Of a DNA stretch of 64,000 nucleotides, positions 1-664 are shown one piece after another. Position numbers and translations under genes: made by a program. Source of the stretch: Candidatus Woesearchaeota archaeon (GTDB lineage: Archaea > Nanobdellota > Nanobdellia > Woesearchaeales > GW2011-AR4); NCBI GenBank assembly GCA_016180235.1, contig JACPBQ010000002.1:66206-130205 (forward strand), in the 5' to 3' direction. Below the pieces are notes generated by a model. That model did not search any database, was not told the origin of the DNA, and saw only the letters and a list, made by a program, of their open reading frames with translations. Every line of letters starts with the position of its first letter. Within the stretch, counting starts at the first letter, position 1.

Positions 1-478
1 CATCAAATTTCCCATCTAGCTCTTTTATCGTTTCCCTTGCATCTCCGATAATTATTCTTAATTTTAGTTTATCGTCTTCATAATCTAGCTTTTCAGCGGC
101 AATCTTTATTTTCTCATAATTGTTTTCTAGCATTTCCAAGGTAGGATCATTTTTATTATAGTTATTTGTTTCAGTGTTTTTTATTTTATTCCCGACAAAC
201 GTATAATCTTCCGGCATTTTTATGTTTTTTATCAGTTTTAGTATCATTGGGTCGTTTTCCAGTGCAACGATTTCAACATCTGCCAAAGAGATAGCGGCTA
301 AACTGTTATAGCCCAGGCCAAAACAGACATCCAGCACTCTCATTCCATTTTTTAGCCTGCACGGCATTGCGAATTTGCCAAAAGACTCGTCTAATGCCCC
401 GCTCGTGGAATGATAGTGCTCGGAGTATTTTTCGCTGTAGAAAGTGATTGAATTGTCTTTTGTGATTGTTTGTTGCAT
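1..478 (-). CDS. MnmC-like SAM-dependent methyltransferase (partial, C-terminus outside window)
   Basis: This reading frame starts at an ATG at 478 and runs off the window start; 159 codons are visible. Residues near 20-50 read YHSTSGALDESFGKFAMP followed by VLDVCFGLGYN, the glycine-rich SAM site of the DUF752/MnmC methyltransferase family, in which the methyl transfer step modifies the tRNA wobble uridine. Later LALEND-like acidic residues after beta-2 and the IIIGDARETIKEL stretch fit the same Rossmann fold. No FAD oxidase domain can be seen, as in archaeal members. Substrate is inferred from family only. It is followed downstream of its start by a tRNA gene, which is suggestive but not proof of a link. 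Confidence 0.75.
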   Translation of the reverse strand, partial: MQQTITKDNSITFYSEKYSEHYHSTSGALDESFGKFAMPCRLKNGMRVLDVCFGLGYNSLAAISLADVEIVALENDPMILKLIKNIKMPEDYTFVGNKIKNTETNNYNKNDPTLEMLENNYEKIKIAAEKLDYEDDKLKLRIIIGDARETIKELDGKFD

Positions 479-526
479 GTTTAGAATATACGGGCCAGGG
501 AGGATTCGAACCCCCGACCTACAGCT

Positions 527-538
527 CTCATCCTCAGA
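527..538 (-). other. tRNA-Arg intron 2 (between positions 37 and 38, 12 nt)
   Basis: This is the canonical archaeal intron position. With the anticodon stem ACAGC/GCTGT as outer helix, CTTC (544-541) faces GATG (532-529) with one T-T mismatch, and the bulges TAT and AGA are cut after their second base. The site can only form after intron 1 is gone, because the 5' half of the anticodon stem is split by intron 1. Exact ends carry some ambiguity. Confidence 0.65.
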
Positions 539-545
539 TAGAAGG

Positions 546-587
546 TTCGACTTTGCCGTTGAATCATATACTGATCTGGCTTTTTTT
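546..587 (-). other. tRNA-Arg intron 1 (between positions 30 and 31, 42 nt)
   Basis: The flanks form a bulge-helix-bulge splice site. CGAC (593-590) pairs with GTCG (551-548), with 3-nt bulges AGA (589-587) and AAC (547-545) cut after their second base. The outer helix GAG/CTT (596-594 with 544-542) completes it. An inner GCC/GGC helix (580-578 with 557-555) lies inside the intron. The position is non-canonical, within the anticodon stem. Confidence 0.8.
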
Positions 588-664
588 CTGTCGCTCTATC
601 CAAGCTGAGCTACTGGCCCACCAGTAAGAAATGATTTAATTATTTGTTTATAAATGTTTCAGAA

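Follow-up and report, generated by a model that had tools for sequence, protein, structure and literature searches.

A minus-strand tRNA-Arg(UCU) gene with two introns lies at positions 619-491 of a 64,000-nucleotide (nt) stretch from a Candidatus Woesearchaeota archaeon (assembly GCA_016180235.1, contig JACPBQ010000002.1, positions 66,206 to 130,205; the stretch is called the window and the genome is labeled G000). We regard it as fairly probable that this gene encodes a working tRNA whose introns are removed in an enforced order, with intron 2 serving first as a helper for intron 1 and then as its own splicing signal. On the broader proposal, namely that such introns are interlocked, the downstream one supplying an outer helix in cis and the upstream one having to leave first, with a pairing that several Nanoarchaeota families have kept or have evolved again using different sequences, we are evenly divided.

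The exon order on the minus strand is GGGCCAGTAGCTCAGCTTGGATAGAGCGACAG / 42 nt / CCTTCTA / 12 nt / AGCTGTAGGTCGGGGGTTCGAATCCTCCCTGGCCCG, and the exons at 619-588 (32 nt), 545-539 (7 nt), and 526-491 (36 nt) join into a 75-nt tRNA that ARAGORN calls tRNA-Arg(tct). The joined sequence matches that of the family member G022, after splicing, at 74/75 positions, and its anticodon loop, CCTTCTAAGC, is that of three intronless relatives (L083, L098, and L103), an agreement far beyond chance. A first-pass annotation, made from the letters alone, had named the same tRNA and anticodon and had placed a 42-nt intron at 30/31 and a 12-nt intron at 37/38; the identity holds, and the junctions (588/545 and 539/526) were matched exactly. 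Other placements were dropped, as shifting intron 1 by one base would give A31.G39 and a single combined intron would lose the anticodon. The source is a metagenome-assembled genome (MAG) and the gene is not called by default tools, which could point to decay of the tRNA gene or to faulty assembly. We consider this extremely improbable: the spliced tRNA is intact, and no other Arg(UCU) gene turned up in the 1.04-Mb genome (completeness listed as 81%), where the match ranking second is a tRNA of greater divergence. In addition, G022 has the same two introns, and eight further genomes have comparable pairs.

Intron 1 has the features of an archaeal bulge-helix-bulge (BHB) tRNA intron, with a 4-bp core (C25-G26-A27-C28 : GUCG), predicted cuts within the bulges AG|A and AA|C, and an exact mature tRNA after removal. 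The CGAC/GTCG core with 3-nt bulges had been given in the first-pass annotation and is indeed present, although the 3' bulge may be read as 3 or 4 nt depending on the register of the outer helix. All 30/31 introns end AA|CC, and in relatives the core covaries between exon positions 25-28 and the intron (CGAC:GUCG, CAGC:GCUG, CAUC:GGUG, CACU:GGUG, and CGAU:GUCG). A strict hBHBh' motif has an outer and an inner helix; the inner helix of the intron 1 motif (BHB1) is weak in G000, consisting of GCC:GGC set off by A-rich loops, and good in G158, G172, and G175. The annotation had also given intron 1 an outer helix, which exists but draws only partly on exon sequence. When the precursor is folded to its lowest energy, the D-arm sequence CUUGGAUAGAG pairs beside core 1 with UUCUA|UCUGAG, of which UUCUA is exon (positions 33-37) and UCUGAG is the first half of intron 2. 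The annotation had missed this pairing of intron 2 with the D-loop, which would complete the motif of intron 1, and dependence between the introns probably runs both ways.

Intron 2 has the marks of a canonical intron: it lies between 37 and 38, its core forms with positions 32-35, and the anticodon stem is the outer helix. Three of the four pairs of its BHB2 core (CUUC:GAUG) are formed, and the U.U mismatch recurs in G022, L022, and L039. The first 6 nt are complementary to the D-loop and are followed by the 4-nt core strand and 2-nt bulge of its own motif. Intron 2 therefore looks bipartite, with the last 6 nt serving its own motif and the first 6 nt completing the outer helix of intron 1.

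Comparison with relatives relied on search patterns that covered only tRNA-Arg(UCU/CCU) genes sharing a particular D-arm. The homologous gene often lies near top6A, the topoisomerase VI subunit A gene that also neighbors the tRNA gene here and through which the nearest named relatives are Candidatus Woesearchaeota MAGs. Intron states range from none (the three relatives above) to introns at 37/38, at 28/29 or 29/30, in the D-loop region, and, as extras, in the variable and T regions; removal leaves the loop CCTTCTAAGC, or CCTCCTAAGC in Arg(CCU) genes. An anticodon-stem intron at 29/30 or 30/31 together with a 37/38 intron was found in ten genes from five families, six of them found first (G000, G022, G158, G172, G175, and, from another order, G398) and four in the last search (G512, G461, G215, and G176). 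Two genes were left out of this set: G012, in which the first insertion is in the D-arm region rather than the anticodon stem, and G467, in which the stem intron, accompanied by a 37/38 intron, is at 28/29. A 37/38 intron accompanies every 30/31 intron found (8/8 genes) but only 1/13 introns at 28/29 (P = 4.4e-5, with a wider range of genomes searched for two-intron than for single-intron genes); within the window's order, the figures are 5/5 versus 0/12 (P = 1.6e-4), and for these and all later P values the relatedness of the genes means that independence is overstated. Instead, a strong inner helix is present in most of the single 28/29 introns that were folded.

Folding energies support a fixed order of removal. 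Forming the anticodon stem and core 2 in the ten genes costs 8.9-17.1 kcal/mol with intron 1 present and 0.4-8.4 kcal/mol after its removal, as computed, like all energies here, at 37°C with magnesium, modification, tertiary contacts, and protein ignored; the same calculation for thirteen genes with a 37/38 intron only gives 0.8-13.3 kcal/mol (median, 5.1). By computation, then, the second BHB cannot form in any of the ten genes before the first intron has been removed. Removal of the two introns independently, in either order, would be conceivable given that some archaeal endonucleases cut relaxed motifs (PMC6379350); with BHB2 and the anticodon stem this far uphill, and with residue 31 separated from residue 30 by intron 1, we judge it very unlikely. 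Ordered splicing, as proposed in the first-pass annotation, is thus supported by comparison and folding energies, but an obligatory order, which the annotation took to be the notable part, has been described before. An obligatory order for close-set archaeal introns was already stated in the tRNAscan-SE 2.0 paper (PMC8450103), and multiple BHB introns are removed sequentially from Cyanidioschyzon merolae pre-tRNAs, with the 37/38 intron last (PMC3978253; PMC9602550).

The reverse dependence, in which intron 2 helps intron 1, was gauged by the cost of forming core 1 with its adjoining outer helix rather than core 1 alone. In the ten genes, this cost is 0.1-2.7 kcal/mol with both introns present and 4.3-8.9 kcal/mol without intron 2, the intron-2-deleted form being a computed stand-in for the reverse order. 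Moreover, duplex energies between the D-loop and intron 2 are lower in the two-intron genes found first than in 24 genes whose sole intron is at 37/38 (P = 3.4e-4; P = 4e-4 when modules are permuted and P = 2e-4 when each is shuffled internally), and the comparison of all ten genes with these 24 controls gives a P value of 5.8e-5. Because the first genes had given rise to the idea, a prediction with a threshold of -8.0 kcal/mol was written before the last search, in which three of four held-out genes reached the threshold (group P = 0.009). The helix recurs across the two-intron genes in two registers, either continuous (e.g., in G000, G398, and G215) or with A37 bulged, as in G158 (CUUGGAC:GUCCAAG), G175 (CUUGGAU:AUCCGAG), and G172 (UUGGAU:AUCCAA). 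Different sequences thereby reach the helix with matching changes, of which UUUGGA:UUCAAA is a further example. In G467, a fifth gene from the last search, with 28/29 and 37/38 introns, there is no D-arm pairing beyond the exon's own. When 24 other 37/38 introns were swapped in, none was as good as the native module of G158 (0/24), the best rank in the set.

In addition to the simplifications of the energy model and the relatedness of the genes, several observations weigh against an interlock. In the absence of intron 2, core 1 alone (4 bp) forms equally well or more readily, and on that ground it was rejected as a gauge of the help given. Unrelated 37/38 introns yield intermediate energies when swapped in, and part of the energy gain arises because any 37/38 intron keeps exon positions 38-40 away from the D-loop; the module of G022 ranks least well, with 7/24 swapped introns as good. 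Among the held-out genes, G176 missed the threshold narrowly (-7.8 versus -8.0 kcal/mol), though it has eight contiguous pairs including the exon. In G000, removal of intron 1 leaves the helix between the D-arm and intron 2 more stable than the cloverleaf. Also, one control, the tRNA-Arg(UCU) gene of G133 (C21:111223-111292), has a 37/38 intron only, yet the first nucleotides of this intron pair with the D-arm (11 bp; -14 kcal/mol); perhaps its lineage lost a stem intron, or perhaps the pairing is due to chance.

Some of these points favor a simpler account, in which only the known ordered splicing operates (PMC8450103) and the pairing between the D-loop and intron 2 is incidental, having grown from the complementarity of the D-loop CUUGGA to the exon UCUAAG. 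The mature exons alone do show complementarity between the D-loop and the anticodon loop, unrelated 37/38 introns recover part of the energy, and G133 pairs without an intron 1. This account must contend, however, with the excess complementarity in two-intron genes, the held-out ones included, with the convergence of different sequences and registers on the same helix, and with the absence, among the eight 30/31 introns found, of any that lacks a 37/38 intron. We treat it as a serious possibility, though a doubtful one.

Under the interlocked reading, we propose the following course of events. The unspliced RNA would not be a cloverleaf; instead, its D-arm would pair with UUCUA from the anticodon loop and UCUGAG from intron 2, and this outer helix, together with the CGAC:GUCG core, would complete the BHB at 30/31 from which intron 1 is cut out. 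With residue 30 joined to residue 31, the anticodon stem (27-31:39-43) could form, the GAUG+AG half of intron 2 would pair with C32-C35, and intron 2 would be cut at 37/38. The cell's tRNA-splicing endonuclease would presumably make the cuts, followed by exon ligation. From gene anatomy, recurrent complementarity, and computed energies, we infer that the gene is transcribed, cut, and spliced in this order and that the helper helix has a role in vivo. If so, one tRNA intron helps in cis to splice out another, which would be a reason to keep a 12-nt intron and would offer a path by which a gene that already has a 37/38 intron gains a noncanonical one. With their matched and unmatched relatives, the ten genes allow the interlock to be tested directly in vitro.

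A single endonuclease gene above the cutoff for PF01974 is present in this genome and in each of eleven relatives (12 genomes, four with a listed completeness of 100%), and a protein search for a second copy gave none that was convincing in seven genomes; a single gene, with no second (beta) subunit gene, is the alpha4-type arrangement in the genomes searched. By sequence, the protein is closest to the Nanoarchaeum equitans catalytic chain and the Methanocaldococcus jannaschii enzyme. An acidic D-(D/E)-E stretch is present in all copies but the divergent L182, reading VDEEGD here and VDADGD in M. jannaschii; the corresponding residues are SDK in the N. equitans catalytic chain, which acts together with a beta subunit. 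The acidic loop suggests a homotetrameric alpha4 enzyme like that of M. jannaschii. According to a review, efficient removal of relaxed motifs is confined to (alpha-beta)2 and epsilon2 enzymes (PMC6379350). If the enzyme were strict, the need of a 30/31 intron for a borrowed outer helix would be explained; the 28/29 introns argue for a possibly more tolerant enzyme than expected. In contrast to the M. jannaschii system, the host lineage has many noncanonical introns, a feature associated in the literature with (alpha-beta)2 and epsilon2 enzymes. The combination of such introns with a single alpha-type endonuclease is apparently at odds with that published rule and provides a test of it. Directly downstream of the endonuclease gene is a 311-amino-acid open reading frame (ORF) at L125:1834-2769 that has no Pfam match.

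Several known systems resemble this one. The multi-intron tRNAs of archaea such as the Thermoproteales (PMC4390854; PMC8450103) likewise have two BHB introns, one canonical at 37/38 and one noncanonical, at a close spacing that forces an order; here, the host is a member of the Woesearchaeota, and a D-loop-complementary module of intron 2 appears to complete the BHB of intron 1. C. merolae shares ordered removal with 37/38 last (PMC3978253; PMC9602550), whereas here BHB2 and the stem cannot form until intron 1 is gone, and intron 2 is apparently borrowed for BHB1. Among relaxed BHB motifs (PMC6379350), the family's single 28/29 introns resemble HBh' (core plus inner helix) and the 30/31 intron of G022 resembles hBH, except that the outer helix here comes partly from another intron. 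The literature covered on ordered or interlocked archaeal tRNA introns and on Woesearchaeota tRNA introns, which lay mostly outside subscription papers, describes no interlock. The gene is a real two-intron gene of a known kind, with an order known in principle, to which a mutual dependence of the introns would add a probably new twist.

Gene-finding tools see little of this locus. At default settings, Rfam and ARAGORN gave no match at the tRNA-Arg(UCU) locus in the window, and the Rfam tRNA model run over the whole genome did not list the gene. With introns allowed, ARAGORN misnames the full precursor Ser(cga); once intron 1 is removed, it finds Arg(tct) with a 12-nt intron unaided. The only subthreshold Rfam match, a weak tmRNA match to the 3' half, was rejected as the shared T-arm. 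The features are collected in Table 1; the distance of about 30 nt between the candidate TATA box and the mature 5' end is typical for archaea.

Table 1. Features of the tRNA-Arg(UCU) locus (window positions) and the endonuclease gene
Feature	Position	Strand	Basis
TTTATAAA, candidate archaeal TATA box, ~30 nt upstream of mature 5' end	647..654	-	direct sequence reading
Exon 1, tRNA positions 1-30	588..619	-	alignment with relatives, mature fold
D-arm strand CTTGGATAGAG, predicted outer-helix strand of BHB1 in unspliced RNA	594..604	-	minimum free energy fold, duplex computation
CGAC, exon strand of BHB1 core (positions 25-28)	590..593	-	core covaries in relatives
Intron 1, 42 nt, at 30/31; core strand GTCG at 551-548	546..587	-	relatives, folding, ARAGORN
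Exon 2, CCTTCTA, positions 31-37; anticodon TCT at 542-540	539..545	-	ARAGORN on spliced sequence
Intron 2, 12 nt, at 37/38	527..538	-	relatives, ARAGORN
Intron 2 module A, TCTGAG; predicted to pair with D-loop and complete BHB1 outer helix	533..538	-	fold, complementarity tests
Intron 2 module B, GATG+AG; BHB2 core against C32-C35, plus bulge	527..532	-	same layout in relatives
Exon 3, positions 38-73	491..526	-	alignment with relatives, ARAGORN
Endonuclease gene	L125:1210-1788 = G000 C9:285899-286474		PF01974

Other introns were also observed. Within a few families, the tRNA-Arg gene has introns at six or more different places; for instance, the tRNA-Arg(UCU) genes L160 and L161 (G025 and G030) combine a 28/29 intron with what appears to be another in the T-arm region, and the variable region carries extra insertions in L022, L031, and L165. 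In the same genome as the window, L011 (G000 C9:31595-31701) is an Arg(CCU)-like tRNA with the anticodon loop TTCCTAA and an apparent D-loop insertion, which limits the Rfam tRNA model to a partial match. Finally, an ORF that begins 12 nt downstream of the tRNA (window 2-478, minus strand) and runs off the window matches Methyltransf_30 (PF05430) and possibly encodes a tRNA-modifying methyltransferase cotranscribed with the tRNA.
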